Made by a program: the position numbers and the translations under genes
The notes under the pieces: model-generated
What the model saw: only the letters and a program-made list of their open reading frames with translations
Told to the model about the DNA's origin: nothing
Database searches by the model: none
Source of the DNA: Bryoerythrophyllum caledonicum
Taxonomy: Eukaryota; Streptophyta; Bryopsida; Pottiales; Pottiaceae
Length of the DNA: 64,000 nt
NCBI GenBank assembly: GCA_963971425.1
Contig: OZ020519.1
Location: forward strand, 15,578,028 to 15,642,027
Reading direction: 5' to 3'
Shown here: positions 2,404 through 23,342 of the stretch, in pieces
Numbering within the stretch: position 1 is the stretch's first letter
Layout: each line of letters begins with the position of its first letter

Positions 2404-2876
2404 CTGTGTACTAATATGACCTTCCTAACAGTAACTGTACTAAACATTGAACTCTGTCCCTACCAGCCCATGATGTGCCCACTGTGCTCAAAATATCACG
2501 AGGACGATTCGCTTACCGAGATGCACTTCTCCCCATTCCCTGTTAATTAAACTTGGCTTTGAAGCGGCGGTACCACCACTTCACCACAATCAAGAGTGAG
2601 CGTCTACTACAAGTGTAGAACAGATTATTACTTGGAACGTGAAGAGCCTAGGCGCGTCGCTATCAGAAAACACACGTCAGCGCTGTTTGGTCTTTGCTCC
2701 TGGAGCGGCTTGGTCTTTGAAGGTTCTGTTAGCTGTTGTTTTCTTTTCCCCGCTTGACCTGGTCATGTCTGCGTTTGTTGGCCTTGTGGCGCTTGAGTGT
2801 CCTGTGTACTGGTGCCGGTGGCACTTTGAGATTCCCCGTCTCGTTGTATTTCTGGCTTCATTAATCTAGCTATCAA

Positions 2877-2886
2877 AACACACGTC
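2877..2886 (+). promoter_or_regulatory. ACGT-core (ABRE-like) site before IFI27-like gene 1
   Basis: ACACACGTCT lies 68-77 bp upstream of the ATG at 2954. On the other strand it contains ACGTGT, which fits the ABA-response core ACGTGK. The same motif is at almost the same distance from the ATG in the fourth unit (21367-21377) and has decayed to ACGC in the second unit (about 9814-9822). No clear TATA box is seen. Confidence 0.4.
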
Positions 2887-2953: not shown

Positions 2954-3493
2954 ATGGCAGGTCCGAGAGGTGCACTCCCTCGTGCGGCTGTCATTGGAGG
3001 AGCAGCGGCTGCCGGTGTGGGAGGAACGGCGGCGGCGGCGGAGGGCGCGTTGCTAGGCCTGCTCGGGTTCACGCCGCTCGGGCCGGCAGCGGGCTCCTGG
3101 GCCGCGGGGTGGATGAGCAGCATCGCGCTGTTGAATGGGGTAGGTGTCCCCGTGGGGTCGTGGTTCGCTGCGGCGCAGTCCGCGGCCATGGGCGGCACGG
3201 CGATCGTGGGGGCCCCGTTTGTGGTTACGTGCGTCGCGGTTGGCGCCACGGTTGGCGCCGTCGGTTGGTGGTCTCTTCAACGCGGTGGCGGCGGTGGTGC
3301 AGCAGGCGGGGGTGCTCAAAGCGGTGGCGGCGATGGTGCAGCAGGCGGGGGTGCTCAAAGCGGTGGCGGCGATGGTGCAGCAGGCGGGGGTGATCCTGCG
3401 ACAGATGTGGATGAGGAAGCGAAGCGAGAGGAGAGTTCGGAGGAGAATGGAACGGAGGGAGATTTGCAGAGTGATGAGCTTATTATGGAGTGA
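2954..3493 (+). CDS. IFI6/IFI27-like (ISG12-type) small membrane protein, intact copy 1
   Basis: A 179-aa intronless gene. The ATG at 2954 sits in GCCATGG, an ideal start context; the frame is open further upstream only through a GTG. Residues 1-35 are Gly/Ala-rich. Residues 36-107 form the family core: LGF..LGPAAGSWA, then MSSIA..NGVGV..GSWFAAAQSAAMGG, then a hydrophobic segment at about 85-106. This matches the Ifi-6-16/ISG12 pattern, known in animals for small hydrophobic proteins of mitochondrial and ER membranes. Residues 110-147 are a Gly-rich linker built from a 39-bp tandem repeat (13 residues per unit). Residues 148-179 are an acidic tail (DVDEEAKREESSEENGTEGD). The same tail is kept in the broken copy at 11260. 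Function in plants is unknown to me; membrane insertion is inferred from composition. Assignment by eye, no database search. Confidence 0.75.
   Translation: MAGPRGALPRAAVIGGAAAAGVGGTAAAAEGALLGLLGFTPLGPAAGSWAAGWMSSIALLNGVGVPVGSWFAAAQSAAMGGTAIVGAPFVVTCVAVGATVGAVGWWSLQRGGGGGAAGGGAQSGGGDGAAGGGAQSGGGDGAAGGGDPATDVDEEAKREESSEENGTEGDLQSDELIME
3277..3393 (+). repeat. 39-bp coding minisatellite in IFI27-like gene 1
   Basis: Three in-frame copies of a 39-bp unit encode the 13-residue SGGGDGAAGGGAQ repeat in the gene frame. Being a multiple of three, the repeat also keeps a second frame open, which would read an AVAAMVQQAGVLK helix-like repeat. The broken third-unit copy has a single unit, so the expansion is specific to copy 1. 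Confidence 0.8.
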
Positions 3494-3896
3494 GTCCTGC
3501 AGATGGCTGCTGATCTTGTCGATCGGAGCACCGACGCATGCCTTGTGCATGTATCAAGTAGATTTATTGTGATCAACGCTTTGGTGAACAGTTTGTAGCC
3601 TTACACATGTTGAGTATTCTGCTTTCCAGTTTTCGTGATGTGAAAATATGTAGCCGAGTTGTTGCTGATCAGAGAGATGCAGCATCCTGTGGATTTTCCC
3701 TACTCCCATGCATCAAATAGATCATACACACTTAAAGACACATAATTGAACACGTTCTGTGTTTACTCTCAGGATACCAAACGCTTCTGAAATGCTCCCT
3801 TTATCCATGTCTACATACTAAGATACTAACTTCTACGATTGGAATTGATCCAAGGTCCATGTGCTAAGCATCTAAGTTATTGCGTGATCCCATCAC

Positions 3897-4310
3897 TTGA
3901 GCTCCCTGAGCATGCAAAACCTTACACTAGTGACTACAAAGACAAGACCTACAACAACCATTGTACATAGTATGGATGAGGGTTACCATGTCCAATTCAA
4001 CCAAAAGGAAGTCTTACTCAAAGACAAATATACACAAGGCATTCTTGGTCATGGAACTAGGATGCATAAAGGTTTATTTCAATTGGATCTCTCATTGGTT
4101 CATGAGATCCACATTGTAAAAACAAGTGACCGCATGCAATCGAAAATCCTTCTTTGGCACAAACGGCTTGGACATGTTAACTTTAAGAAATTGCATGTTA
4201 TGTCTCACCAAGGTATTGTGAAGGGCTTACCCAAGTAACCTTGTGCAAATATCATTTGTGAAATCTGTCAACCAAGGTTGTCATGTTGGTGCCATGTTTG
4301 TCCGATTCGC
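3897..4310 (+). mobile_element. Ty1/copia retrotransposon fragment (pre-integrase region)
   Basis: The frame 3897-4238 encodes a 113-aa piece ending in a GAG-pre-integrase motif: LWHKRLGHVNFKKLHVMSHQ, with His and His placed as in copia HHCC fingers. After one stop, the sequence continues with C-A-N-I-I-C-E-I-C, the Cys part of the finger. No LTRs, integrase core or reverse transcriptase follow, so this is a short dead fragment between unit 1 and the MITEs. Confidence 0.75.
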
Positions 4311-4429
4311 CTGTCTAATAGAGTTCATGCCCATCGGATTCAGTCAACACGTAGTTGGCTCCTTGATAAGGTAAAAAAAGAGACGTGGTTGTCACATTGG
4401 TGCCACCTGGCTGCCATGAAGGACGTTGG

Positions 4430-4740
4430 GCGTGGATAGAATTGGTAGGGACGGGGAGGTGGGATAGGGCGCGGACGAAAGACATGGCACGGACGTTATC
4501 TTGACAGGGTACAGAATCTAGACAGAAGGCTAGGGCGCGGACGGAAGGGCAAGGCACCAACGGATGGACATGGCGCGAATGAAATGCAGGGCCGGACTTG
4601 GGGCGCAGACGAAATGCAAGGCACAAACAAAAGGGCAGGGCACGAACGCGGGTCAAGGACATAAGGCTACCTAGGCGTAGACACAAGGCCAGGGCGCGGA
4701 CGGATCGCCCTGGAGTGGACATCCTATTGGGGCGCAAACC
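4430..4740. repeat. Degenerate GC-rich short tandem repeat
   Basis: The stretch repeats motifs such as GGGCGCGGACG(G/A)AAGG and AGGGCA(C/A)GAACG at irregular 20-40 bp spacing, about ten times. It explains a 145-aa open frame on the minus strand (4315-4752), which I do not accept as a gene because its product is repetitive Leu/Ser/Arg-rich sequence with no recognisable domain. Confidence 0.6.
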
Positions 4741-4900
4741 TAATCCACTCAACGAAGTAGGGGAGCGGGGCTAGGCGGGCCTTTGAAATGCACTTGGGCC
4801 TTGACCATGGCATTCCTCCTTTCCATGGGTTCAGAAAACCATCAAATGGATGCAACTTTTATTTTTAGTTCTGACAAGATCTTGACGTACCTCAAAAAAC

Positions 4901-5076
4901 CACTATGAGAAAAGAGGGTGTTTAGCAATGTTTTGAAAAATTCCTAAGCAACGCCAAGGAGCTTGCTTTGTACATAAAACCTCGCTACAGTTGTTGCTTC
5001 TTTTTAAATCAACTTGCCCCTAGGCGTTGCTTAGGAATTTATAAAACATTGCTAAATACCCTATTTTCTTGTAGTA
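4901..5076. mobile_element. CACTA-type MITE, copy 1
   Basis: A 176-bp inverted-repeat element. It begins CACTATGAGAAAAGAGGGTG and ends with the reverse complement of TACTACAAGAAAATAGGGT. The whole sequence folds back on itself around a centre near 4985. A 3-bp target duplication AAC flanks it (4898-4900 and 5077-5079). CACTA ends and a 3-bp duplication are the marks of the CACTA superfamily. Copy 2 is at 6007. Confidence 0.8.
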
Positions 5077-6006
5077 AACACATTGATTCTATCTTTGCCA
5101 AGAAGCGGAAAGAGAATCTATATTTAAAGTATAACTTTGGACCTCAATATTAATATTGAGGTTGCACGAGGTATTTTGGAGAGATGTGCTCTCGTCCAAA
5201 TGGCATCCTCTTATTTTAGGGGGTCCAAAGGCTTTTTAGAAATTTGTTTGGCAAACTTGGAGCTTTCGGCCTCAAATTACTCTCGGAGGCCCCTTTCGGC
5301 TATTCATTGGTCCTCCATCCAAAAATAAAATAGGGGCCAAATTTTACTCCACCCCCTCCTCCAAAGGCTTGTGCAACCTCAAAATTGAGATCCTTGGACC
5401 TCTAACTGTAAACTCTGACATTTGTACTTCGCGACAACTTGAGGAATAATAATAATGTGAGGACGGTTCTGTTATATAAGCACAAGTAGCCTATAAGACC
5501 GTCATTTTGGCCCCCATTTATCGTGTTGGATACTTGATCAAGCACCAAAAATCAAATAACCAGTCGAGTTGCATATCTGCTTTATGAATAAACTACTCGG
5601 GCGCCGCTGAAAGGACGCCAGCGCTTGCCCGGGTAGCCCCCTTTGTAATTAAGTTGTTATCAAACTTAAGGGGGGATGATGCCATGGACTCGGGGAGGGT
5701 TGGGTTTGAGTAATATGGGCTTAACAAACTAATATTCTCTGTCATAACAATGACAACTTTCTCATAAGAGAATCACACGAATGCAATTGGCTGGAAACTT
5801 TGAGGGGAAAGGGGCGGAGATGGAGTCCATATCACTAAAGTTTGACGATGGTTTTGGGGCGTTGATGGAGTCCGTATCAGTGACGACAACAGAGCTTGTA
5901 TTGTAGACGATGCTGACCAACGTGACCCTATAGAACTTTGGCAGTTATTGGAATCGGAGTGGATGGTAATTTTCTAAAACAACAGGATGGACTTCTTGCT
6001 TGAACA
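5077..6006. other. Spacer without recognised genes
   Basis: No conserved frame, RNA gene or transposon end is recognised. The short open frames do not resemble known proteins. Around 5580-5640 there is a local GC-rich patch. Confidence 0.4.
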
Positions 6007-6180
6007 CACTACAAGAAAACAAGGTGTTTAGCAACGGTTTGAAAAATTCCAAATAAACGCTTAGGGGCTTGTTTTGTACATAAAACTACGCTGCAGCCGT
6101 TGCTTCTTTAAAAAGCAAGCATCTAGGCATTGCTTAGGAATTTTTCAAAATGTTTCTAAACACCCTGTTTTCTTGTAGTG
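6007..6180. mobile_element. CACTA-type MITE, copy 2
   Basis: A 174-bp foldback element with canonical ends: CACTACAAGAAAACAAGGTG at the left and the reverse complement of CACTACAAGAAAACAGGGTG at the right. It is flanked by the 3-bp duplication ACA (6004-6006 and 6181-6183). It is the same family as 4901-5076 but with better preserved ends, so it probably inserted later. Confidence 0.9.
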
Positions 6181-6469
6181 ACAACATAGTCCAGGAATAC
6201 GACAAGCTCTTGACCACCTCATGCAATCACAGATCTTGAGCTTTGTATTGAACGAAGATTGACCATCGAGGAAAACTTGATCCGCTGCTCGTAGAGATCA
6301 TTTGGGCTCGGACGACCTCCCTATGCGAGTAGGGACGCACGACAACGAAGGAGGCCCAAGTGGCACCATTGATAGTCCGATGAATATCAACTTGGTGTAG
6401 TAAATATATGTATAATCTGAGTGTTTAATGTAGTAATCTTTGTATATGTAGTTTTTCTCATCGAACTTA

Positions 6470-8170
6470 TAAATAGAAAGTTATGCCATCTCAAAGGAAT
6501 ATTTGTGGAGTGCGGGAACGTCCGGCAACTCCAAATACTCTTGCTAGATTACTCCATTAAATGTGATATTTTCAATATTAGCTAGAAATATTATTTTATT
6601 TCATATTGTCAAAAAACTTTCTTGTTTTTAATGGAAAAGTGCATTTATCCCAAGTCAAAGATTTTCACAATACACTTTCTTTTCCATATAAAACTTAAAG
6701 ATCTTCATATTTTCTACTTTATATTTTTTTTACTACAAGATGTGGTGTAAACCTTCCTGCCAACAATTCGGATTATCATTTTAAAACATAATAAGTTCAC
6801 AAAAAACAAAACATGAAATTGGCACTTTTTGAACCTCCACTCTTTGCACAATTGTTTTGAATTTGCTACACCCCTTGTCTACCTCTAAAAATTGGTGTAC
6901 AAGGAGCTAATATCATGATCAACATGATAATATAAAATTTAGACCTTGTGTGGTGCAAACATTTGACACCAAGTTAAGTCAAAGTTTCTTGATCCCCTCA
7001 TCACAAGGAAGAAAATGAACCATTTTCTCTACTTCAAACACTATAATCTTTCAATAAGTGGGGTCAAAGTTGATGAAATTTTGTGAGTATGTTACTTAAC
7101 CCCTAAAGGACCAAGTGTCCGTTGGCGGGGCGATTTTGATTTTGTGCAGGTTTCTAAAATTTGAAATAAATAAATAAATTTGGAAATTGTTATCCGAGAT
7201 TTTCCTTGATAAGAGCTTTGTGGAGGTATTTTTATTATTTTTTTTGGCTCATGGTTTTGAAAGTTAGTACCACTCAAAGTTAGAAGTGGGGACTCCGGAC
7301 AACTCCAAAATTTTGATAGAAGTTTCTATTGACAATTTGACATTGAGATTTTTCATTCAAGTAGAAAATATTACCTTCTTTGAATATTTTTTAAAAAAAA
7401 TAATGTCTTTAAAGTTTAGTGTTAGAAAAACATTTTAACTCAAGCCAAACATTTTCACACATTTCGGGCAAGCGGGGAAAAAAACTTCATCTTTTCTACA
7501 TAAAACCTAGAGATCTTTATATTTTTCACTTATTATTTTCTCAGCAACAGTATGTGGTGAGAACCTTCTTATTGACCGTTGGGATCATCATTCTAAAACA
7601 TATTAATTTCACAAAAAAATTGAACGTGAATTGACTATTTTTTAACCTCCACTCCTTGCACACTTGTTTTGAATATGCTACACCCCTTCTTTACCTCTAA
7701 AAATTGGTGCATAGGGAATTAACATCATGCTTAATACAATGGTAAAGGATTTAGACCTTGTGTTGTGCAAAAATTTGATACCAAGCGAAGTCAATGTCTG
7801 TTGATCCACTCAACGCAGGGAAGAAAATGAACCATTTGTTTGACTTAAAACACTGTAATCTTTCAATCCGTGCGGTCAGAGTGTATGAAATTTTGTGAGT
7901 ATGTTACTTAGTAAGTCTTAATTGAGATCCTACAATAAAAACTATTAATAGAAGGTTCTATTTCCTTCCTTACTCATTGCACTAGAATCAACAATTCTAT
8001 TGTGATTTTGGTGTGAAATTGTCACAATCCTTTAGGGGTTAGTAATCTTTAGTTGAGATCCTACGGTTAACCTAGAAATAAAAGTGTTCATTTCCTTCCA
8101 TATCCATAGCACTAGAATTGACAGTTTTGAAGTGTATTTGGTGTGAAAATTGTCAAGGAAATATAGGGGT
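6470..8170 (+). mobile_element. TA-inserting MITE family C, outer copy C1 (split)
   Basis: A 5'-truncated member of a roughly 945-bp non-autonomous family present several times here. It runs 6470-7096, is interrupted by a second member (7099-8039), and resumes at 8042-8170, where it ends AGGGGT followed by TA. Interior landmarks shared with the other copies include 'ccacactaatttttagaggtag'-type sequence in either strand and a 'gcggtcaaagt..atgaaattttgtgagtatgtt' segment. It has no coding capacity. Confidence 0.8.
7099..8039 (+). mobile_element. MITE family C, copy C2 nested in C1
   Basis: A 941-bp element with terminal inverted repeats ACCCCTAAAGG...CCTTTAGGGGT. A TA dinucleotide flanks both sides (7097-7098 and 8040-8041). 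Because it sits inside another copy of its own family, the empty site can be read from C2 itself ('gttacttagtaag'). This shows that the duplicated target is TA, not TTAA. TA targets and simple inverted ends fit a Tc1/mariner-type (Stowaway-like) MITE. Confidence 0.88.
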
Positions 8171-8343
8171 TAAAATGTGGGCGTAAGTTATGTTTTTGAA
8201 GCATCAACGTGTCTTGAAGCCCTACACGGAGATCATGGTGACCACCACTTGTTGGAATTGGAGTGCCTAGCTTGTTGAGCCTGCTTACAGTATTTACTGT
8301 AGTGTAAGTGTCATGACGCCTGGTGAGATTGTTGTTGGCCTGG

Positions 8344-8508
8344 GCAGTACTGATCAGCTTTTTGAAATGGGTTCTTTGGCTCTTCGGCTTCGCAGCGAAG
8401 GGGCCTGCAGCGAACAGTGCCGCAGCGTTCTGGCAGAGTTGCATCGGTACCGTGAAAGCTAAATCTCTGTTTTCACTGTTTCAATCGTTTGCAATGGCGT
8501 CTTTCTGA
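8344..8508 (+). pseudogene. IFI27-like exon of a second subfamily in unit 2
   Basis: A clean frame reads VLWLFGFAAKGPAANSAAAF followed by WQSCIGTVKAKSLFSLFQS and FAMASF, then stops. The order GF..(K/G)GPAA.S.AA..QS.IG.VKA.SLFS..QS is a close match to the IFI6/IFI27 core, and is closer to the animal-type consensus than the genes at 2954 and 21447. There is no in-frame ATG; a candidate acceptor (cctgggcag) lies just upstream at about 8341-8349, so it may be one exon of a spliced gene or an orphan remnant. Its counterpart at 1825-2078 is more decayed. I see no first exon, so I treat it as partial or broken. Confidence 0.55.
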
Positions 8509-8529
8509 TGGGGAGTCTGATCTTCCAAT

Positions 8530-8920
8530 CATTACGGCTCTCTTCAAGGAAGTTTCATTTTGGTTCTTCGGTTCAGGTTTCCTGATCTGCATATAGTAAT
8601 ATAGTTTAGTACAGTTTGAGGCAACGGACTCGGTCTGTCATGAGGCGTCTACGAAGACCTGAGCTCTTTTCATTGAGTTTTACGTAGTGTGAGCGACTAC
8701 AGAGTGAGAATGATATGCAGGAGCACTATCTGATTTCCTCACTCAAGATGCTGTCATGTATGTGTCCAGTATCATGGTGATTAACCATTCCCTGGTGTAT
8801 TTAGAAGTGTCCAGTATCATGGTGATTAAATGTATGAAAACCCGAATGTTTGTAACCTCTGTACATACTATTGTCTACCCTCCCGTATCATCTCAAAATT
8901 CTAGTACTCAGATACTTAAC
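8530..8920. repeat. 391-bp perfect duplication, copy 2
   Basis: Identical to 2013-2403 as far as I can read. It ends abruptly at 8920, where unit 2 continues with a different sequence (gaagacagg). A second, diverged version of the same promoter segment follows at about 9117-9600, so unit 2 carries the region twice: one perfect and one diverged copy. Confidence 0.85.
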
Positions 8921-10014
8921 GAAGACAGGACCTGATTGAGGATCACATCCTCGCTTTTTGATAGTTTGGTAGCTGTGAGGTGTGGCCACAATTTGAATCA
9001 TGTTTAGGCTGTAAGATGTTTTGATTAATTGCACGTTCAGTTGCCTGGAATGTTATCTCCTCATGAAGCTCAGTTGAGTTTCATAATCACATGTGTGTAT
9101 TTTTGAATGTAGATCTGAGCTCTTTTGATTTCGTTATACGTAGTGCAAGCGACTACAGAGTGAGAATGATATGCAGGAGCCCTATCTGATTTCGAATCAG
9201 CATTCCCTCGCACAAAATGCTGTCATGCATGTATGAATCATTCCCTGGTGTATTTAGAACTCTCCGGTATGGTGATTAACTGTGCCATGCTGATTAAATG
9301 TATGAAACCCGAATGTTTGTAACGTTCTCTGTACTAATCTCTACTGTTCCGTATCATCCCAAATTTTAGTACTGGACAGATACGTAACCTGTGTACTAAC
9401 GTGTCCTTCCCAAGAGTATTGTACTAAACATTGGATTCTGTCCCTACCTGCCCAAAATGTGCCTACTGTGCAGAGTATCACGATGACGATAGGTACATCT
9501 AGATGCACTTCCCCCTCTTGGTTTGAAGCGTCTCCGGTAGTACGGTAGCACCACTGCACCACAATCAAAAGTGAGCGTCTACTACAGTGTAGAACAGTTT
9601 ATTACTTGAAACGTGCAGAGCCTTTGCGCGCGGAGGTCAGAAAACACACGTCTCCTCTGCTTGGTCATCGGAGGTTCTGTTGGCTGATGATTTCTTTTCC
9701 TCGCTTGATCTGGTGTCTGCGTTTGTAGGCCTTGTGGCGCTTGGCCATTTCCTTGGCCTGGTGTAGTTCGTTCTAATTCCAGCTTCACAAATCTATCTCG
9801 AATCGGGTTATTAAAACACACGCCGCTTTTTTACCAAACGTGTTGCTGTTTACTGACTGGAAACCTGGAAAAGCACACTTTTGTGTCTGTTGTGACGAAC
9901 TTCACTCACCCTCATTGCGGAACATCAGAAATCAAGAGAAAAACAACAGGTTTGCTACTTGTGCTCTCTCACAAGTCTGACCAATCGAGAATTGTCGCAG
10001 TGTCTGAGCTAGCC

Positions 10015-10506
10015 ATGACAGGTCCGAGAGGTGCAAATCCTCGTGCATCTTTCATAGGTGGACCAGTTGGCGCCGTCGTGGGGGGGACGATGGTAGTGGC
10101 CGAATGCGCGGTGTTAGGCATGCTCGGGTTCACGGCGCTCGGGCCGGCAGCGGGCACCTGGGCGTCGATGACGCAGAGCAGCTTCGCGGTGGCGAATGGG
10201 GTAGGCGTCATCGCGGGGTCGTGGTTCGCTGCGGCATAGTCGGCGACCATGGGCGGCGCGGCGATCTTGGGCGGCCCGTTTGTGGTTGCTTCGCCGTGGT
10301 GGGCGCCGTTGGACGGTGGTGGTTTCGTCGTAGATGGTAGGGAGTGGCTCCAGCTGATGGATAATGATAGTGTCGAACGCAGCAACGACGCTGCGTTTGC
10401 GCTTTCCAGTTCTCGTGATGTGGAAGTACTACATGTATCGGACTTGATTCTAATCAGAAAGATGCAGCATCCTTTCATGAGCAGGGAAGGTGAAGCACTG
10501 CAGTAA
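10015..10506 (+). pseudogene. IFI27-like copy 2, broken by a nonsense codon
   Basis: The ATG at 10015 is in the same context as copies 1 and 4. The frame reads MTGPRGANPRASFIGG, the core LGFTALGPAAGTWA and ANGVGVIAGSWFAAA. It then hits TAG at 10237-10239, where copy 1 has CAG (Gln). After the stop the same frame continues AMGGAAILGGPFVVA. It then departs from copy 1 because of a small deletion after 'gtggttgc', and runs on without homology to 10506. The acidic tail is missing. The upstream ACGT site has decayed to ACGC. All this indicates loss of function. Confidence 0.8.
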
Positions 10507-10529
10507 TATTTTGTGTTTTTGCTGACGAC

Positions 10530-10960
10530 CTGACATGTATGACTTCCGCACACTGTTTTATCTCGTAAGCATTGCTTTCGTTTTGAAAGGGAAAGGGAAA
10601 AAGAGTAGGGAGTAATTGCCATGCAAGGTAAATTCAACATGCCAAAGCCATGTGCGTGTTGAACTTGATTCGATGGTTGTATACACGTTATTGATGGTTG
10701 TGTAGGCAGTTGTAGTTTTTCTGCAAATCTCTTCACTGTATGCAGATTGTAAGTGCACTTTAAAATCTTTCAGCTGATTCTGGGTATCATTTATTACGCA
10801 AGTCGAGAAAATGTTATGCAATGGTTCAAGATAGACATCACATCTGTCTCGGTGTGGTATTTGACCTCAAAAGAGACCAAAGTTCTTGCTCTCGAACTCT
10901 GCCTTCATGACTAGGAGTGTAAACGACGAACTGATTTCGATTGGCACGAGGTTTACTAAA
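10530..10960 (+). other. IFI27-ELIP spacer, unit 2 (ELIP lost)
   Basis: This matches 21810-22170, the spacer between the intact IFI27-like copy 4 and ELIP, and 15880-16240 in unit 3. Shared landmarks are 'atgacttccgcac', 'gccatgcaaggt', 'aacatgccaaag', 'tgtatgca(g/a)att..aagtgcact' and 'gacatcacatctgt'. In unit 2 it is followed by unit-3 promoter sequence rather than ELIP, so an ELIP copy was either deleted or never included. Confidence 0.7.
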
Positions 10961-11259
10961 CCTGTGTACTATAGAAATAATATGGCCTTTCAAACAATAC
11001 TGTATTGTTCAATTCACTCTCGTATCATCCCAAAAGTCTACTACAATAGATGTATCTGATTACAGATGATAAACCTGTGTATTAATATGGCCTTCGCAAC
11101 AGTACTGTATTAAACATTGGACTCTGTCCCTACCAGCCCATGATGTGCCCACTGTGCAGACTATCACGAGGACGATTCGCTTACCGAGATGCACTTCTCC
11201 CTATTCCCTGTTAATTAAACTTGGCTTTGAAGCGGCGGTACCACCACTGCGCCGTGACG

Positions 11260-11482
11260 ATGAGCAGAATCGCGCTGGGGAATGGGGTAGGCGTCACGGC
11301 GGGGTCACGATCGCTTTGGCGCCGTCGGTTGGTGGTCTCGCAAACGCGGTGACGGCGGTGGTGCAGCAGGCGGTAATGCTCCTGCGACTGATCTGGATGA
11401 GGAAGCGAAGCGAGAGGAGAGTTCGGAGGAGAATGGAACGGAGGGAGATCAGCAAAGTGATGAGCTTAATATTATGGAGTGA
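11260..11482 (+). pseudogene. IFI27-like copy 3, internally deleted
   Basis: Upstream promoter-type sequence (about 11040-11250) jumps straight into the middle of the gene at MSRIALGNGVGVTAGS. A second deletion removes the segment equivalent to about residues 70-100 of copy 1, and the reading frame shifts. The 3' part still encodes the acidic tail DLDEEAKREESSEENGTEGD in the original frame, with a single unit instead of three of the 39-bp repeat. The ATG-to-stop distance is not a multiple of three. It is a pseudogene, but it proves that the Gly-rich linker and acidic tail are ancestral. Confidence 0.8.
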
Positions 11483-11907
11483 GTCCAGCAGATGGTTGTC
11501 GATCGGAGCACCGACACTGCATTTGTGCATGTATTGAATGTATAGGCGTTGCATTACCTGAGCGTTGGTGACCACTTGTGCCGAACGATTTTGTGATTAA
11601 TGATTGGCCACACGTACGTTATGCTTCTTCTTTCAATTTTCGTGATGTGGAAATACTGTGTGCACAGTGGCAAGAAGAAATATTTGTACTGTACAGTACC
11701 CGGAAGAAATGTTACGAGATTTCCAGTAATTTTTCAAAAACATGTACTAAAGAGATACTTTAGAAGCTCCTACGAACTTAAAAATTCATGGAATTTTATA
11801 CACAAAATTGCAATTGAAAGCTTTTGGACTCTATTTCAATAACGAAATTTGCTTTCATAGAAAAAAATCCAAAATCAACACACAATTTGCTTTCTCCTAT
11901 ATAGTGT

Positions 11908-13193
11908 TCAAAATCTAGTACTACCACCTTTTGCACTAATTACTTCCTTCATACGTGCAGGCATGGTAGCAATAAGGGTTTGCAAAATGTCTGAAGGTAT
12001 CTCTTCCCATACTCTATGAAGAGATTCCACCAATTCTTCTTTATTGTGTGGCCGGGATGTACTCTGAACTCTGTCTTTCACTATCTACCATAAGTTTTCT
12101 ATTGGGTTTAGATCTGGAGAGTTGGTTGGCCATTTCAATTTCTTTATGCCATGAGCTTCTCTCCACAACTCTAGCAACTTGTTGTGGTGAACCGGAGCGC
12201 CATCCTCCATAAATGGCCATATTCATTAAATTGAGACTTTTCAGAGATTTTGAGACAAAATGCTAGTTCTTGAAAATTCATTTAAAAAAATAATGACTAC
12301 AACAAAAAATAAATAATGCTCAAATAGTGATTCTATAATGAAAATCTAAAAGCTCATGTTGTTATTTATTTATAAAAAAATACTAGTAAAGAGATAAAGC
12401 GGTTTATCCTTGAGTCGAGGATAAAATTGAGACTGCAAAAAGTCTCAATTTAACGAATATGACGTTATAAGTATAATGTCTTCTCGATGATCATGGAGAA
12501 AATAAAACCCGCTTAAAGTGCCTTTGTAAATAAGATCAACAAAATCACTTGCACTTCTACTCTATGGAGGTATGATTACTAAAGGAGACTTTTCAAAGCC
12601 ACTAAAAGCACCCCAAACCATCACTGAAGTACGTCCAGACTTAATAATAGGTGTTAAACATTTAGATGAATATCTCTCATATGCCTTTTGCCACACTCTA
12701 ATTTGTCTAGAATTCCTTCCAATTTCAAAAGATGATTCATCGGTCCAAATAACCTTCTTCCAATCCTCCTTAGTCCAGTTTTTATACTTTCTAGGAAATT
12801 CTAGCCTATCTGCTTTGTGCTTCTCATTGAGAAAAGGTTTTTTTGCTGCAACGAGGTTTCTGTAACCAAGGGTTTTCAAAGCGTTCCTTACAAAACGAGT
12901 ACTAACAGGTGCAATACTTGCCATCTGATTTGTAATCTCTGTGAGTGATGAACGACGATCATTATTAAGGAGGCGTTCTAAGTGTTTCAAACTACGCTGT
13001 ATAAATTTTTGAGGCCTACCCGAGGACTTTGGTAACACTACAATTCCTCGTTTCTTAAAACTTCCTAAAGGCTAAAACACCATAAATAGTGGAAGATGGC
13101 ATCCCTAACTCTCTTGCGCACACCTCTCATTCCACCTTTATGCATTCCAACCACTTCTCCTTTCTCAGCATCTGTCAACGCTCTAGTCTTCAT
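11908..13193 (-). pseudogene. Tc1-like transposase remnant of transposon 1
   Basis: Read on the minus strand, a start region MKTRALTDAEKGEVVGMHKG begins at 13193 and loses frame near 13080. The frame 13038-12562 then carries paired HTH remains, a WTDESSFEIG motif (first catalytic Asp) and VMVWGAFSG. After the inserted MITE, the sequence continues MEDGAPVHHNK (second Asp) and SPDLNPIENLW (Glu of DD34E), then an in-frame TAG, and ends KGGSTRF with TGA at 11908-11910. At least one frameshift, one nonsense codon and the insertion make it inactive. Confidence 0.88.
12221..12460. mobile_element. MITE nested in Tc1-type transposon 1
   Basis: Ends are ATATTCATTAAATTGAGACT at the left and its near-exact reverse complement at the right (19 of 20 match). 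It splits the transposase between the conserved segments before and after the second catalytic Asp. A target duplication could not be fixed with certainty. Confidence 0.75.
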
Positions 13194-13669
13194 CTTTCTC
13201 AACAGATTATGCCACTCAACCTACCCGCAACACCAAACTAACTTGTTTCAACAAAAATAATACACCTCACACTAAACCAAGTCACAAATTCACATACAAT
13301 CATGTCAAAAGTTACCCCCACAACTTACAATGCAATCACAACACAATATCACATACATATCTTCTTAAAAAACAGTGGTCCAAAACATTGTCATGCCGCA
13401 ATGAGGTCCAATGCAAGCCGGTGCATGAAAAACGTGTGGACACACGTTTGGATAGGGCAATGGAGAACTATAACTTTACATGGGTTTTTTATATAATTAT
13501 CCACATACAAGTTACTTTTCACAACATTACTCTTAGTCCTACAAATAGGTGAAAATCCCAAGGCAATTGCTCACAAATTGAACTGCTAGTGGTCACTTGA
13601 AGTTCACTATCTGTAATCTAGTATAATTGGAGTAAAGTAAAAATCCCGTAACATTTCTTCCGGGTACTG

Positions 13670-15209
13670 ACAAGAGAAGCTTTTTTAGAAAATCAACTAC
13701 CAAATCTACATGAACTCTCATAAAATAACAAGAACACAACCATAAGAGCGTATAGTTGCAATAATCATAAACCACAAAGTTTTCAATGAAAATATGATCT
13801 AGAAAAACACACAATAATTCAAATGTGCAACAAGCTTGTACGATTGGTTATGCTCAAATTCATTTTTATTGCATATCAAATTGAAAACTAGACTATAGAA
13901 TTCTAAACACCTTTACAACTCAATGATTCAACTCATAAGCACTCACATAACTATTGTATAGTTACTATAACCTGAATGTAAGTATAGTTACTATCCGCCA
14001 AGTCACTTATCCGGTCTAGTCACCCTTACCTCCAAAGTCAACTTCATCTCTCCCAAAATTCCTTCTATCAACATTGCAACTCCGACAACAACTCCAAAAT
14101 AACTCAAAAAAGAACCGCTCCCAAATACAAGCGCTCCAAAAACCTCCAACACTCCGCTGCCGTTGTCTCTGCAGTGCTAATGCTGCTTCCGCTGCCGTTG
14201 CTATTACGCCTCCGCAGCACCTCCACGCCGTCTACACCGTCTACAGACCTTTGTACATCTGCCGCATCTACAACGTCCACAACGTCTCTTTTCACAACAA
14301 GTAATCTCTAGCACTAAATTCCAACAACTAAAAACTAGATTCTTGTCAAGTAATGAAGATCAAAACTCTTCTTTTTACTCTATTCCTATAGAAATGATCC
14401 AAAAAATAAAATAAAAAAAAGAAGCTGCATCTAAACTTTGTATTACATGGCAAACCGCCAACATCAACAAGGCCTTTAAGCCAGACATCCTTTCAACTCT
14501 CCCTTCTACACCCAAATCTGAACTTGACAAGAATAAAGGTGACATGGGCGGTTTAGGGTTACAACCACCCCAAAACAATCCTTAAATAACCCTTTTCACA
14601 CCTCCAAACTTGCCTAATGTTAATTCAGCCCTATTAAGTCCAAACTAGGCCCCTCGTAGGCTAAACTAATAATTAAACTATACTACCAACCCCTAAAGAG
14701 TCAGTTAATCATCATCGTTGCCATATGCCATGACACAGTTGATCAATTCAATCACTAAGTTGTAAAGGTGTTTTGTAATCTATAGTCTAGTTTTCTATAG
14801 TTGATATGCAATAAAAATCAATTTGAACATAAAATTTTGTACGAACTTATAGCTTATTTGAATTATTGTGTGTTTTTCTAGATTGTATTTTTGTTGGAAA
14901 CCTTGTGCTTTATGCTTGTTGCAACTATACGCTCTTGTGGTTGTGTTCTTATTATTTTATAAGAGCTCATGTAGATTTGGTAGTTGATTTGCTAAATAAA
15001 ACTTGTCTTGTACAACTATTTATGCTTGCCAATGTATAATCAGTACAAGTAGCATATTTTGAGGGTGTCAATGTTAATTAGGTGCCATGTGGTGTACTAA
15101 TTAAAGTTGGCCCAAAAAATCTCTTATCAACCCACCAACTACACTACAATCTAGTATCTACACAAATTGGAGAGATGCTTCACTGTCCAAAAACTTATGC
15201 TTCCCACTG
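13670..15209. mobile_element. Non-autonomous Tc1 derivative with an inverted internal end
   Basis: The left end (13670-13935) matches the left end of the complete Tc1 element at 51795-52080. The right end (15055-15209, finishing TGCTTCCCACTG before TA) matches the right end of that element. The transposase is missing. Inside, 14757-15038 is an inverted copy of the left end, finishing with the reverse complement of CATTGGCAAGCATAAATA. The left-most about 20 bases were lost where it abuts transposon 1. The middle (about 13940-14750) is unrelated, locally GC-rich sequence of unknown origin. Confidence 0.75.
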
Positions 15210-16340
15210 TAGCTGGCATGTTTATAATAAAAAAAGGTGCAACATCCTTCCATTAGCAGGAATGTAGGTGAACCACTATTTTGTGTTATGGTTTTGGTGA
15301 TGACATGACATGCATGACCTCCGCACAATGTTTCATTTCTTAAAAATTCAGTACCCTAGGTGAAGGGCACCTTCGGCTATAATTAATTCAAAAAAGGCAT
15401 GCCAAATTATTTAGGAAATTATTGAGTGAAAATGCCGAAATTGAAGAGAATATTAATACACAAAATCTTTGGACTCTAAGGACATCAATGGGGAGTTATG
15501 GCTTAGAAAGCCTTGATTCTTGGAAGTGTGTGCAAAAGAGTTCCAAGTAGGGAGCTTGTGGTCTTAGGTTCAATCCCCTTGGCCGTCAAAATAGGCTAAC
15601 TATAGTAAACTGAGAACTCCAACAGGAATCTGCTAAAATTTCTTTTAGAAAGCTGAACCCACTTTTTTGACTTTAATTAATTATTCGGCGTCCAAGTGCC
15701 GAAGGTGCCCTTGACCTACGGTACTAGAATTGTTGTTCCCACATAGGTAACCATTTAGACGTTACTTTCAAGACGGTCCAGACCATTCACCCTTGATTAA
15801 ATAGTCAAACCAAGTTTTGAGGTACAATAATATTTTTGATATTGTTTAGACCTCCAGTTCTAGTAGTGATTGCTTTCTCTGTGAAAGGAAAAGGAATAGT
15901 AAGCAATTGCCCTACAAGGTGATCAATATGCCAAAGCCATGAGCGTACAGTACCTAATTTTATCTCTATATCACTCGTTATATTGGTTTATAGACAGTCT
16001 TACTGCCTTGATTCTGTATAAATCTTTTAATCGTATGCAAATTGTAAGTGCATTATAAAGAATATTAGATTTTTGGTGACATTTATTACACAAGTAGAGA
16101 AAAAATATGAAATCGTTCAAAACAGATATTATGTTATATGTCACTGTGATATCTGTTAGTGTCAATTTTGTCTTCATTACCCTTAGTGAACGGAGAAAAA
16201 CCTTTCAATTGGCATGGATCGATCGCAAGACAAGGCGACGTCAATGCCCTTGTATGCAGACAGATAGGCTGTAATTCCACTCCCTACTTACAACCTCGCC
16301 ACTCACACATAGGCAAAGCGCATCCTGCAAATTACTAAAG
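15210..16340 (+). other. Unit 3 resumes: IFI27 3' flank and ELIP-upstream spacer
   Basis: Position 15235 onward matches the sequence after IFI27-like copy 2 (about 10455-10560), so the two Tc1-type elements split unit 3. Positions 15880-16240 match the IFI27-ELIP spacer. Positions 16245-16335 match the region upstream of ELIP at 22246-22325 ('ttccactccc', 'caacctcgcc', 'aaagcgca(c/t)cctgcaaat'). No ELIP coding sequence follows. Confidence 0.7.
15355..15720. mobile_element. MITE with long inverted repeats
   Basis: Left end CCTAGGTGAAGGGCACCTTC, right end the reverse complement of CCGTAGGTCAAGGGCACCTT, each followed by a GC(C/G)-rich segment and ATTAATTA. GTAC occurs at both outer edges and may include the target duplication. 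It inserted into the spacer of unit 3. Confidence 0.75.
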
Positions 16341-16344
16341 ATAA

Positions 16345-17955
16345 ATTTATTGAATGAAATTAAGAATTGAAAAATCATATTGTTAAAGTTAAAGTTTTTA
16401 AAAGGTGGATTTTTTATATCTTTTCTTTCCAAGTGCTCCATGTATAATTTTCTATGATATGTTTACAATTCATAAGTCAAATTTGATTATATTGGGTTCC
16501 AAAAGATGTACTGAAAGTGTATGCAAGCCCCTCAAGCCCCTCTAGTTTCAGATATAATTTTAATATTATTTGGCCTATATAATTTGATTGAATATATTAT
16601 ATTAATTTTTGAAGTTTCTAATTGGTGTATAGAAATGCTCATCAATTGTAAAATAATCATCATGCCTTCTACCCTTTACGGGTTTACCACATTTTGATTT
16701 TATGGACTCAGAAGTGGAATTATTGTGAGGAAGGATTTCCACATTTAAATGCCCTTTTAAAATTAATTATGTTGTCCTTCTCTACAATATACATGCATTT
16801 TCATTCTACATATGAGAGTTGCCATAGAGCACACATGGATTTTCATTCCACACATGAGAGTTGCCATAAAGCACACCTTAGACATGCGAGATCTCAGGCA
16901 TAATGAAAAATCTCTTGAATGGGCTTTATCCTCGGTGGTTTTAAGTCCATGCTATGGCATTCAAATACGGTGGGTGTTGGTTTGAAGACAACCATCAGCA
17001 TTACATTGGATGCCAAGGTAGCAATTAAAGTGCATCCCGACCATGATTGGACTTCAAGCAAAGATTGAATATTGTTTGCAAGGGCCCTCTAAACTTGGGG
17101 TACCCCATGATTTACACTTCAAACATAAACCAAAATAAAATCACTACAACCAAAGTCATTATATAAATCGTAGAACACAACAAAACCATAACTTTAAGAG
17201 CATCTTGCCCATAGAGTTGACTCAATTTAAATGTTAATGGTTGAGAGCAGAAAAAATCATATCACTTACAAAAAATAATACATATCAAAGATAACGTTTA
17301 TAAGACTTTAAAAATAAATTAATAACACATATTGAAAATAACATTAATAAGACTTTTTAAAATGAGTTCATAAAATTTATTGAAAATAAAACTTAAAAAA
17401 CCTAAAAAATAACACATCAAAAATAATTTTATAACGAAAATAAAAGTAAATGTTGAAAATAAAATTAAAAAAAAATAGTAAATCAACTAAGTTGATTTGA
17501 AGAATGAATCTATCATGGTTTGATGAGATTCCTTCACACACCAACAACAAACTTCATTTTAAAGTGCTCGGATATGCTTGACGTGTGAAAGAACGTCATT
17601 TGGTCTTTGTTACAAAGTCTTCAAAGTCTCAAATGCACACTCTCCATCATTAAATCCTACAGCTCTTTTGCCATATCATCATCATCTACCATAACGTCAT
17701 TTAGATCACATTCTTGATATTCATAAGGTAGCAAATCTATAATATCCTCATTAGTAAGTTCATAAGGATTATTCATATCAAACTTCAGCTCGTAATTGAA
17801 AAATTTATGAGCCCCGTAGTGTCATTTTCCTTACGTTGAGATGATAACAATGTAAGTTAATCCAACAAAGCCCCAATGTCATCAACCTCTTTCAAACGCT
17901 TAGTTTCTTCATTATCATTTTCAACAAAATGTGAAATACCAATATAGCTCCAACA
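16345..17955. other. AT-rich spacer
   Basis: No gene is recognised. About 16790-16880 holds two copies of a 'catttcattc.acatatgagagttgccat' segment. About 17240-17470 is very A-rich with repeated AAAATAA motifs. About 17040-17220 weakly resembles repeat A. Confidence 0.4.
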
Positions 17956-17959
17956 ATTC

Positions 17960-19153
17960 AAAATTGTTGATACACTAACTCCAATACGCCATGCTCTCTC
18001 AACCATGATCATAGCTTGATACACATCAATTGCAAAAAAAATCTACCACGATACAATCTATTTAATGTTTGAATCACCAACTTCTAGTAATGGATTTGAA
18101 TGATGCAATCATGTCTGTAACTATAGATTGAAAGCAAATATTTTGTGGTATTTGGAGAATAATTGCATCACTCTCAACTATATATCTACATATGACACTT
18201 GATGTCTAAAAATTTATCAACGAGCAAGAGTACTTTCTCTTTTTTGGTCATCACCATCCTCCTCTTGAAATCTAGTATGAACCGCATAAAAAAATTTGTA
18301 GTCATCCATGCTTTTTTATTAGTGGCCCACATAATACCCAAGTTCTATGGATTCTAAATGTGTCTGGAAGTGAAAGCTCGAGGCTTTAGATACTAATTTA
18401 TAACCAATGGAGGAAGATAAATGCTTCCATCACCATTTGCAGTGAGTGCCACCGTAATACGCTTCTTATGCTTCTTCTTCCTAGATACTTGCTTTGTAAT
18501 TAAAGTATAATACAATGGTTCTAATTTGTAAAAGAAATTAGTCTTGTCCATGTCAAAAACATCACCGATGTAGTATTGAGATACAATAGTCCTCAATATC
18601 CTCCATTTGTTTCGAAATCGTTGCCGAACTGTCCGCTCCTGCATCTTTTTCTTGGCAAATATAACCCTGAATTTGAAATCTCTTCTTGAACTTCTCTATC
18701 CAGCCATTCAAAAATTGAAGCTCCTTTTCACTTACATCTCTTAATAACAACGCATATAACCTCTTTGCCGCAGCTATCACAAGATTATAAGATAAAGTGA
18801 TCCCCTTCTCATGCATTCTCGTGAACCAAGTGAAAGTAGTAACTTGCCTCCACTTTTGGACATTGAGCCTTTGTCATACTCTTCAAATTACCCAAGTTAC
18901 CTACACCAACAACTGTAATAATCAATCATTTTTGTTTTGATAGTCTACTAATAGTCATCTGAGAAGCTAAAGCATTGAACTTAGCATTTGCCCACCCACA
19001 CAAAGCCTTGTTGGTAATCTTGTAATGTGCAGCCAAAACTCCCTCATGATGAGAAATATTTTTTTCTTGATCCTGCAATGTGAACTCGCAACTCTTGCCC
19101 ATTGCAATCCTTGACAGAGGCTCAACAATTGAAACAGGAAAAAGGGAACTCAT
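17960..19153 (-). pseudogene. pogo/Tigger-type transposase remnant
   Basis: Read on the minus strand from an ATG at 19153. The N-terminal helix-turn-helix (FTLQDQEKNISHHEGVLAAH) ends in MTISRL, as in pogo/CENP-B proteins. A second CENP-B-like domain follows (ITLSYNLVIAAAKRLYALLL, FLNGWIEKFKKRF). The DDE_1 catalytic part then appears: YYIGDVFDMDKTNFFYKL (first Asp), RKKKHKKRITVALTANGDGS, PPLVIN, and downstream LLVDKFLDIK and a degraded PNTTKYL segment. Several frameshifts and stops separate these blocks and the third acidic residue is not preserved. No terminal repeats were identified. Confidence 0.82.
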
Positions 19154-20420
19154 AAGAAACTTACTATGAACTCTTTAGAAAGAAGGTGGGAACATCATGG
19201 AAACAATTTGGGAATGGCATGGGAACAGGATGGAGCGCTTTGGGAACTCGATGTGAATGTAGTGCCGGTATACCAACGAGATAAACCAACGGACTCCTTG
19301 TAAACCAAATCGAGTTGTAGGGATAAACTGGCTTGGTTGTTGGAAGCCCAACCTGCACATTTTGGGCCGAGATCGGTTTATCTAAAGCCTCTATTTGGGT
19401 GTCATGTGCGTATGCTTTCTATCCCAATTTCCCCCCTCCTCCCTCTATCCCGACTACCCCCTCCTTGACCTAACTTGACCCTCTTCACCGCTCTAACCTC
19501 ACCCTCCCTTCCAATAGCCCTTTCTCAATCTCAACTCCGTGGCTCTCCCTAGCCAACTTCCTCTAAAGTAGAGGCACCCAATTCCAATTATTTAAGCCAA
19601 TTCGGGACTTAAATGACATTGTGTGTCAAAAATATTTATGTAGAAAGATGCGGAATTAGGAATGAAACTCAACAAATATTTTTTCAAACTTACTGACAAA
19701 GATTTGGAATTGATATAGAATTTAAATGCCCAAAAACCACCAGAGCCCATAATCAAACTCTAGAGTAGGTGAGATTTGGTGCCTTCCTTCATCCAATGCC
19801 AATAAGTGAGAGTGAGTGAAAGAGAGAAGACATGCCATGGATAACCAACTCATGGAGGGTACCCAATACTGATCCGCCTTGTTCGACTTTTGAGGCAATG
19901 CCACCAGTGAGAGCTCAATTGAGGTGGAGCAACCCAAAATTGCACACATCATGACCCAATGCCGATAATGACTGGTGTTTCCAGATTATGAGTTATCGGT
20001 TTTGGGTCACTTCATGCACCATTTCAAGCATTTGCCATTTTCATGCACCATGCCATGCTGGCCCATGCATACTCTACTGATCGGAATTGAGTGCCTCTAC
20101 CTTGCCACTAAGCTATAGAACAATGTCCCAACTCTCTCGCCCACTTCATTTTTTAATTGAAAATGCAAACAAGTTAAGTGCAAAAGATATGGTTTATTAG
20201 ATAAAGGAGCATCAAAACTTTTGGCTCAAATGTACCACATGTATCATGTCGTTTTTTCAACTAAATTAACACTTACAAAGGTGAAATCAATAAAAGAGGG
20301 AGCAAAAAATGTCACAGCACATCACATGTAACACTTCGTAGTATTAATTTTTTGGGAGCAAAATTTAAATTTCATAACATTTATCAAATTATAACATATG
20401 GAGAGGTAAAATTTAGTGAG
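19154..20420. other. Spacer without recognised genes
   Basis: About 19185-19260 contains a run of GGGAA(C/T) motifs ('gggaac', 'gggaatggcatgggaac'). Otherwise no domain, RNA gene or transposon end is recognised. Confidence 0.4.
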
Positions 20421-20424
20421 GGTG

Positions 20425-20600
20425 GATTTTAGCAGGCCCTTTACGTTAGTGTGCTAACCATATTTTCTTAGAGGATCCACAAAATTTTCATCTTAGTTTG
20501 GCGCTTCATTCTTACTAGAAGTGCAACAGTGAGGATGCTCCAAGTGCGCAAGCTAATTGGAAATGAGACTCGTATGGTGGTTCGTCGGTGGCGGTGTCTA
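20425..20600. repeat. Dispersed repeat A, copy 3
   Basis: Matches 150-340 and 1318-1470, including 'gatgctccaagtgcgcaagc'. It directly precedes the unit-4 promoter segment (20640-20810), which matches 8178-8340 of unit 2. Confidence 0.55.
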
Positions 20601-21446
20601 GGTGGATTCACAGACTCACCTTGCATTTTCTGTCCAGATGTGGGTGTAAGTTGTGTTTTTGAAACATCAACGTGTCTTGTAGCCCTACACGGAGATCATG
20701 GTGACCACCACTTGTCGGAATCGGAATGCCTAGCTTGTTGAGCCTGCTTGAATTTATTGAAGAGTAAGTGTCTTTACGCCTGGTGAGATTTGTTTCTCAG
20801 TACTGACCATTCAACTTTCGCCGCGTGCTGACATGGTTCATGTGCACAGAGGAGGAGCGGCTCGAGGCGGATCCCCAATCTCACCTAGCCTATTGACGTC
20901 GGTGAAGCTGGATGCCGGCGCCTTATTGCAGCTTGCAGTCATTGGGGCAGTCTCTGTAAGTTGACGTACACTCTGTTGATGTATTTGTTTGGATAAGAGG
21001 ACTATGCTCAGACAGTCAGGTGTATTTAAGCTGAAACTTAACCCTTTCTGAACCACTTCGTTTTGTATCATCTAGTGCATCAAAGTATTGCAGCGTTGTT
21101 TGAGCCACTTTGTTTTGAATCATTTAGTCCTTCTAGGTAATGCAGCGCTGTTTGAACCACATTCTACACTGACATAGTGTTGAGTCCGGCACTGTTTGGT
21201 TCCGATCTTATCATTTGCTTGCATTTTTCAGTGTAGAATGTATCTGTTTTCAAATTAGCTTGCCCTTCTTAAGATGCTGTTATTTATGAAATAATTCCTA
21301 GGTGTATTTTGAACTGTCCAGTTTCACGGTGATCCAATGTATGAAAACCCGAATGTGATAAGAAAGCACACACGTCTACTCTGTAGTGGTCCCTCCGGGA
21401 TCACAAGTCTGACCGATCGTGAATTGTCGCAGTGTCTGTGAGAGCC

Positions 21447-21517
21447 ATGGCCCGTTCTGCTGATGCACTCACTCTTGCGGCTCTGAAGGGAGGGACAGTG
21501 GGCGTCTGCGCGGGAGG

Positions 21518-21555
<38 letters not shown>

Positions 21556-21800
21556 AGGGCTCGGTGCTAGCCTCGCTCGGGTTCGCAGTGGGCGGGCCGA
21601 CAGCAGGCTCCTGGGCGGCGGGGACGATGAGTAGCATCGCGCTGGGGAATGGGGTCGGCGTCACTGCGGGGTCGATGTACGCTGCGGCGCAGTCGGCGGC
21701 CATGGGCGGCGCGGCGATCCTGGGGAGCCCGTTCGTGGTTACGTGCGTCGCGGTAGGCGCCGTATGTTGGTTTGGGCCGGCGGCGTTACTTATGATGTAG
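21447..21800 (+). CDS. IFI6/IFI27-like small membrane protein, intact copy 4
   Basis: A 117-aa intronless gene. The ATG at 21447 is in the GCCATGG context conserved with copy 1, and 60 bp of the leader are shared (TTGTCGCAGTGTCTGTG). Residues 25-36 are a pure 12-Ala tract from a GGC repeat. The core is residues 43-108: LGFAVGGPTAGSWAAG, MSSIALGNGVGVTAGSMYAA, AQSAAMGG and a hydrophobic segment with FVVTCVAVGAV. It matches copy 1 almost residue for residue, then diverges. A deletion joins the gene to its former 3' flank, so the Gly-rich linker and acidic tail are gone and the end is CWFGPAALLMM. ELIP begins 835 bp downstream on the same strand. Probably a membrane protein; role unknown. Confidence 0.72.
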
Positions 21801-22634: not shown

Positions 22635-23342
22635 ATGGCAGCGATGGCGTCGCAGATGAGGAGTGTGTGTGCCATGACGGGAGGAGCTCTCGGAGGGATC
22701 GCCTTGCCTTCACGAAATGTGAGGGCCGCGAGGATGCCTTCGCTTGTGCCAGGGCGTGTAGTGCGGTGTGAGGCGTCGCCGGAGGACCGGTACGTGAACC
22801 CGATCGACCAGGCGACGAAGAAGACGATCACGCGGGAGGAAGTGCTGCAGAACCAGGCGACGAACGAGTCGGAGCAGCGGTCCATCTTCGGGGAGAAGCC
22901 TTCGCCCGGCACGCCCTACGGGCGCCCGGAGGTGGAGCGGCGCCCGGAGACCGGCGACACGTCGCCGTGGAGCATTTTCGCGTTCGACGGCGCCGCGCCG
23001 GAGACGATCAACGGCCGCCTGGCTATGCTGGGGTTCGTGTGGGCGATTATCGGCGAGAAGACCACCGGGCTGTCCGTGGTGGACCAGGTGTTCAGCCCCG
23101 GGAGCACGGGCTTGATCTGGTTCCTGGCGTCCGTGCAGATCCTGACATACGCGTCGCTCGTGCCGATCTTCAACGCGCGCGAGTCCACCGATGCTCGCGG
23201 CTTCGGACCATTCCGGGCCAAGGCTGAGCGCTGGAACGGCCGCGCCGCCATGATCGGGTTCGCGTCGCTCCTGCTCACCGAGCTCGTCATTCAGGGCCCG
23301 CTCTTCGTCCGCATCTTCAACAGCGGCGGCTTCCCTGCCTAG
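22635..23342 (+). CDS. ELIP: Early light-induced protein (ELIP), chloroplast thylakoid
   Basis: A 235-aa intronless protein of the chlorophyll a/b-binding superfamily. ELIPs bind free pigments in thylakoid membranes under light or dehydration stress and limit photooxidation. The start is the ATG at 22635 (CACCATGGC). Residues 1-45 look like a transit peptide, Ser/Arg/Ala-rich and ending VVRCEAS. Residues 50-112 are a hydrophilic stromal linker. Helix 1 (about 119-142) carries ETINGRLAMLGF and helix 3 (about 196-217) carries AERWNGRAAMIGF, the paired ExxNGR pigment-binding motifs; helix 2 is about 159-179. Length and motif order are normal for ELIP. No intron occurs, as in several expanded stress ELIP families. 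It follows IFI27-like copy 4 on the same strand. The long minus-strand open frame over it is a GC artefact. Confidence 0.95.
   Translation: MAAMASQMRSVCAMTGGALGGIALPSRNVRAARMPSLVPGRVVRCEASPEDRYVNPIDQATKKTITREEVLQNQATNESEQRSIFGEKPSPGTPYGRPEVERRPETGDTSPWSIFAFDGAAPETINGRLAMLGFVWAIIGEKTTGLSVVDQVFSPGSTGLIWFLASVQILTYASLVPIFNARESTDARGFGPFRAKAERWNGRAAMIGFASLLLTELVIQGPLFVRIFNSGGFPA

Follow-up and report, generated by a model that had tools for sequence, protein, structure and literature searches.

Ifi-6-16 (IFI6/IFI27-type) genes in a clustered and partly decayed set in the moss Bryoerythrophyllum caledonicum

IFI6 and IFI27 are human genes strongly induced by interferon, and the founding paper of their family (Ifi-6-16, also ISG12 or FAM14) is said to be that of Parker and Porter in 2004. 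In excerpts of published studies, animal members are described as mitochondrial and are linked to apoptosis and virus control (PMC10175689, PMC5850085, PMC9144789), with conflicting results on the antiviral action of IFI6 on hepatitis C (PMC5850085). An excerpt of a fungal secretome study includes a table with a protein that has both Ferritin_2 and Ifi-6-16 domains (PMC10051545); among the open-licence papers searched, the Pfam accession PF06140 occurs in this one alone. Among the matches listed in that literature, judged by titles, abstract starts and term counts, there was no plant study of the family.

Copies in the window and elsewhere in the genome

The window is a stretch of 64,000 nucleotides, part of contig 7 in an assembly of 437 Mb and 894 contigs. 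An initial annotation, made from the letters of the window, reported four places with a shared IFI6/IFI27-like motif (2954, 10015, 11260 and 21447). We recovered all four, two as open genes (C and G), one interrupted by TAG (E) and one as a fragment (F), and found the set to be larger: it extends to two copies ahead of the window, to contigs 3, 10 and 12 with four genes in all, and to relics of a second subtype, D. The places in the window are:

2954..3493, + strand: copy C, open in a single frame, 179 aa, with a Gly-rich linker and an acidic C-terminal tail; PF06140 41.8 bits, E 1e-10
10015..10239, + strand: copy E, pseudogene with an in-frame TAG after 74 codons; PF06140 35.3 bits
11260..11482, + strand: copy F, fragment, a piece of the core and then the acidic tail in another frame; tail match 89% identity
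21447..21800, + strand: copy G, open in a single frame, 117 aa, without the acidic tail; PF06140 31.2 bits
1815..2103, + strand: D-subtype relic upstream of copy C, 86.9% DNA identity to 8336-8620; frame fragments resemble the core of the contig 3 genes
8336..8620, + strand: D-subtype relic upstream of copy E; PF06140 33.9 bits with one TGA at 8350-8517

Ten matches, each above the Pfam cut-off, came from a family search of the assembly. Contig 7 has six of them, contig 3 two, and contigs 10 and 12 one each. Members outside the window are:

Contig 7 from 15558942, 19 kb before the window start (L010:886-1209): copy A, from the family search
Contig 7 from 15574213, 3.8 kb before the window start (L011:6127-6654): copy B, from the family search
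Contig 10 (L015:4844-5083), minus strand: gene H, 80 aa, cut short
Contig 12 (L014:4746-5195): gene I
Contig 3 (L012:4476-5009), minus strand: gene J
Contig 3 (L012:8868-9536), minus strand: gene K

With the protein of copy C as query, nine matches were found in the genome, which bring in part of fragment F and the B tail; further divergent copies may lie elsewhere. The initial annotation had placed the array at 2954..21800; the clustering stands, while the extent does not, given copies A and B upstream of it and the relics at 1815-2103 and 8336-8620.

Contamination was rejected because the copies sit on four contigs of 23.5-38.4 Mb and a chlorophyll a/b-binding frame adjoins copy G. That frame and the match of the contig 3 genes to a protein of the moss Ceratodon purpureus also bear out the land-plant host named at the outset, and by themselves make a moss very probable. 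The neighbour, immediately 3' of copy G (22635-23342, + strand), is a single-frame gene whose chlorophyll a/b-binding domain scores 47.4 bits (PF00504); we read it as ELIP-like. The window also contains a GAG-pre-integrase remnant (3897-4238, + strand), a reverse transcriptase frame (50785-51504, - strand) and two Tc1/mariner-type transposase frames on the - strand, 12562-13038 and 52084-53154, the second open at 356 aa.

Family membership

The curated cut-off of PF06140 (Ifi-6-16 / FAM14) is 29.1 bits, and nine of nine frames tested pass it (30.4-59.2 bits). In the window these are C, E and G, with the 179-aa and 117-aa products, for which a profile search had been proposed, at the scores listed above; the six further frames of the genome are A (50.2), B (46.0), H (49.9), I (59.2), J (36.4) and K (30.4). 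The homology to IFI6/IFI27 that was first read from the motif is thereby upheld.

Generic plant proteins rich in Gly and Ala might resemble the family by chance, and Ala plus Gly does make up 38-49% of the seven tested frames of contigs 7, 10 and 12. A better match to such proteins was the outcome that the initial annotation had named as counting against homology; instead PF06140 is the best Pfam family in eight of the nine frames, the exception being K, whose Trp-rich repeat matches Leader_Trp at 32.4 versus 30.4 bits. We also built an HMM from 28 named animal proteins alone. It was run on the nine genome frames, on 1000 shuffled versions per frame, on reversed sequences and on 1594 open frames (the nine included), at least 40 aa long, drawn from the window and seven fetched loci. 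All nine frames exceed the best of their own 1000 composition shuffles (C 28.4 versus -1.9 bits, E 35.1 versus 13.0, G 20.2 versus 6.0), and the reversed sequences are all negative. At the sensitivity used, shuffles and reversals rule out a chance likeness, which we consider extremely improbable.

Of the 1594 frames, the nine (17.2-60.2 bits) and two further ones, fragment F at 14.8 bits and the 8336 D relic at 11.8, make up the top eleven; the 12th is a D relic on contig 10 at 6.3 bits, and the remainder reach at most 4.6. Among the weakest of the nine are the contig 3 genes (J 20.7, K 17.2). The shuffles cover the nine frames, and one of E reached 13.0 bits, so the membership of F and D rests on DNA similarity and, for D, also on the Pfam match. 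The D relic at 8336-8620 is 51% identical to a contig 3 gene over 39 aa.

Three residues (G68, S69 and Q75) never vary in two alignments, one of 24 rows and one of 52, that include animal members, and eight more (G38, F39, A46, G47, S48, M54, V65 and A72) are kept at 90% or above in both. The contig 12 protein matches the sequence of the solved IFI27L1 structure 2loq at E 4.4e-08, copy G only at E 0.01. From profiles and alignments, then, the moss genes are almost certainly genuine members of the Ifi-6-16 (IFI6/IFI27/ISG12, FAM14) family.

Duplication with flanking DNA, and decay

DNA comparison shows flanks shared between copies at 67-94% identity: A and C at 74.7% over 1123 bp, A and E at 82.8% over 1108 bp, and B and C at 78.7% over 1238 bp. 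The D relics lie within a duplicated pair (1815-2403 versus 8336-8920, 93.6% over 590 bp). Their subtype is without the ANGxG insert, and another D relic lies beside H on contig 10; since D relics occur both in the duplicated pair and beside H, both subtypes were apparently part of the ancestral unit. Upstream of a D relic and of copy G are blocks 89.7% identical to each other (8175-8330 and 20638-20790) that end, as read by eye, in a GGTGAG-like possible splice donor; they may represent a first exon that the D subtype has lost. On contig 3, J and K differ by an in-frame 63-bp unit present in 2.0 versus 4.0 copies (L012 4502-4627 and 8894-9145), a minisatellite within the coding frames that yields a Trp-rich repeat of 21 residues.

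A short element, ACACACGTC, recurs upstream of the copies. Its places in the window are:

2670..2678, + strand: ACACACGTC, upstream of copy C
2878..2886, + strand: ACACACGTC, aligned 76 bp ahead of the copy C start codon
9644..9652, + strand: ACACACGTC, upstream of copy E
21368..21376, + strand: ACACACGTC, aligned 79 bp ahead of the copy G start codon

These four matches compare with 0.20 expected, and none of 100 shuffles had four. The element lies within 400 bp upstream of all six array-type copies (A, B, C, E, G and H); the loci of fragment F, of the contig 12 gene and of the contig 3 genes lack it. Its reverse complement contains ACGTG, which we take to be the core of ABA-response elements, and it may be common to the copies merely through descent of the duplicated flanks.

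The array could be a decaying relic in which segmental duplicates arise and then die, with no present function. Half of the eight family places on contig 7 are indeed broken (E, F and both D relics, leaving A, B, C and G); in E the similarity runs on past the TAG, which is the one TAG within the longer match. Copy A stops at a TAG that falls inside its match to copy C and is therefore a core whose tail was lost. Full-length omega, like all omega values here a pairwise count without significance test, is 0.49-0.95 among A, B, C, E and G, and 0.29-0.95 in all 21 pairs of seven copies (with H and I added), dS being above 1 in every full-length pair that involves I. Over the core (45 codons, six copies) omega is below 1 in 14 of 15 pairs; the exception is B-C at 2.20, from one synonymous and six nonsynonymous changes. 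For J-K, dN is 0.059 and dS 0.082. Constraint on the recent copies is weak. Yet the core is entire in A, B, C and G, and each of the nine pairs with H or I has a core omega within 0.16-0.49. A protein search with copy C found at least four proteins with no assignment, encoded on short contigs (639-1394 bp), among the 7992 candidates sharing most words, a count that says nothing on the rarity of the array type. The same core occurs on three of these short contigs (P0002, P0003 and P0004) and the acidic tail in two of the four proteins, P0003 and P0001, the latter with its start cut and below the Pfam cut-off. Weighing these points, we regard a functionless relic as rather unlikely. By a small margin we favour a tandem array of Ifi-6-16 genes expanded in this lineage, which gains copies through segmental duplication and loses them through decay, and whose products would be organelle-membrane proteins acting under stress.

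Origin, proposed role and likeness to known systems

A search with the contig 12 core (60 residues) gave 95 protein matches at E up to 1, of which 13 are unnamed and 82 named, the latter all animal (vertebrates and one crinoid), at 54-76% identity over an aligned part that frequently covers no more than 65-77% of the query. With the contig 3 core as query, the matches are Ceratodon purpureus KC19_7G112400, identical at 76% over the part aligned, and, at E 0.19, a protein without a name. The Ceratodon protein has a database annotation of PF06140, under the name hypothetical protein, so plant members are already present, though unstudied, in databases. The first reading, that such genes are unexpected in plants, should be softened as regards annotation, although the papers listed include none on the family in a plant.

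Trees were built from 93 columns and are unrooted. The proposed phylogeny with fungal, protist and animal members was realized for the animals, the one of these three groups with named rows in the trees. With 52 rows, the genome copies, Ceratodon, P0001-P0004 and three other unnamed rows stand opposite the rest (96/85, bootstrap not settled). Eight rows with long branches, odd composition or short length (P0107, P0098, P0105, P0018, P0053, P0097, P0001 and P0016) were then dropped. In the resulting 44-row tree the 30 animal-labelled rows, namely vertebrates, one crinoid and four unnamed rows that we labelled animal (P0022, P0026, P0066 and P0093), form one side of a branch at 99/95, and the moss genes do not group among them. 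The array joins P0002-P0004 (99/95) and the contig 3 type joins Ceratodon (100/98), while neither the contig 12 gene nor the contig 3 type has a settled position, long branches meeting at the latter according to a warning of the tool. Neither placing the contig 12 gene with the array type (p-AU 0.447) nor placing it with animals (0.437) is rejected; nor is uniting the array, environmental, contig 12 and contig 3-type rows (0.117), which the best tree splits.

Transfer from a fungus, protist or animal into mosses, with expansion afterwards, would account for the named matches of the contig 12 core being animal in 82 of 82 cases, with no plant, and for complete family frames that require no intron. 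Because the sampled animal rows form one side of the branch, the moss rows are not nested within them, and a recent transfer from a vertebrate is disfavoured by the 44-row tree. The contig 3 type is common to this moss and Ceratodon, so any transfer would be old. No prokaryotic relative was confirmed among 266 pattern matches in one GTDB scan, and no viral one among 35 and 26 in two viral scans, all made with single proteins and exact patterns. We hold transfer to be possible though doubtful.

Hydropathy shows TM-like stretches in eight of the nine frames, H (80 aa) having none, and the moss products are probably membrane proteins. Judged by hydropathy and charge, none of the nine N-termini is a clear mitochondrial presequence. 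We propose small helical membrane proteins whose Gly/Ala core would pack through GxxxG-type contacts (G..AGS twice, 21 residues apart), with a soluble acidic tail in B and C; under stress they would work at the membrane of an organelle, which in animals is the mitochondrion or ER, and might tune membrane permeability or cell death. The twofold G..[AS]GS pattern at lag 21 is found in 98 of 116 sequences (a redundant set largely found through this core) and fits A, B, G, H and I, not C, E, J or K; in 11 sequences 4 to 1273 of 2000 shuffles reach the twofold G..AGS, which makes it weak in most. A role at organelle membranes in stress or cell death, drawn from homology and hydropathy only, is offered tentatively, as somewhat less likely than not.

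Secreted or membrane-active antimicrobial peptides, in place of organelle proteins, would also be small, Gly/Ala-rich and multigene with variable tails, and copy A ends in a basic stretch with a net charge of +7. We know of no antimicrobial-peptide activity in the Ifi-6-16 family. The Ferritin_2 plus Ifi-6-16 protein in the excerpted fungal secretome table (PMC10051545) speaks for secretion, the acidic net charges of B (-10) and C (-12) against an antimicrobial peptide, and we think this reading distinctly unlikely.

The moss genes would bear on whether the effector predates the interferon pathway. Mosses may have kept and multiplied a stress- or pathogen-induced cell-death effector of organelle membranes; if so, a classic interferon-stimulated family would be an ancient eukaryotic module, wired to interferon later by animals. 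This broader view is speculative and we consider it unlikely. A plant with, to our knowledge, no interferon system and with eight open family frames would make the core function testable free of interferon signalling, and gene replacement is routine in mosses (Physcomitrium).

Among described systems, shrimp LvIFI6-16 resembles the moss genes by description, not by sequence: in the excerpt available it is a non-vertebrate member, although an animal one, that is virus-induced and tied to apoptosis genes (PMC9144789). Ceratodon KC19_7G112400 is 61% identical to J in the alignment, with the last ten residues near-identical; it differs in having a related Trp-rich C-terminal part without the exact 21-residue unit (twice in J, four times in K), and is not of the array subtype. 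With animal IFI27, IFI27L and IFI6 the moss genes share the core GFT..G.AAGS.AA..MS..A.ANG.GV.AGS..A..QS, a small product predicted to be hydrophobic and a multigene arrangement, and B and C share an acidic end with human IFI6, which also ends acidic. Where animal members read NGGGV, the moss array copies read NGVGV; the array copies also have a Trp-rich core, with long acidic tails in B and C and a Gly-rich linker in C.
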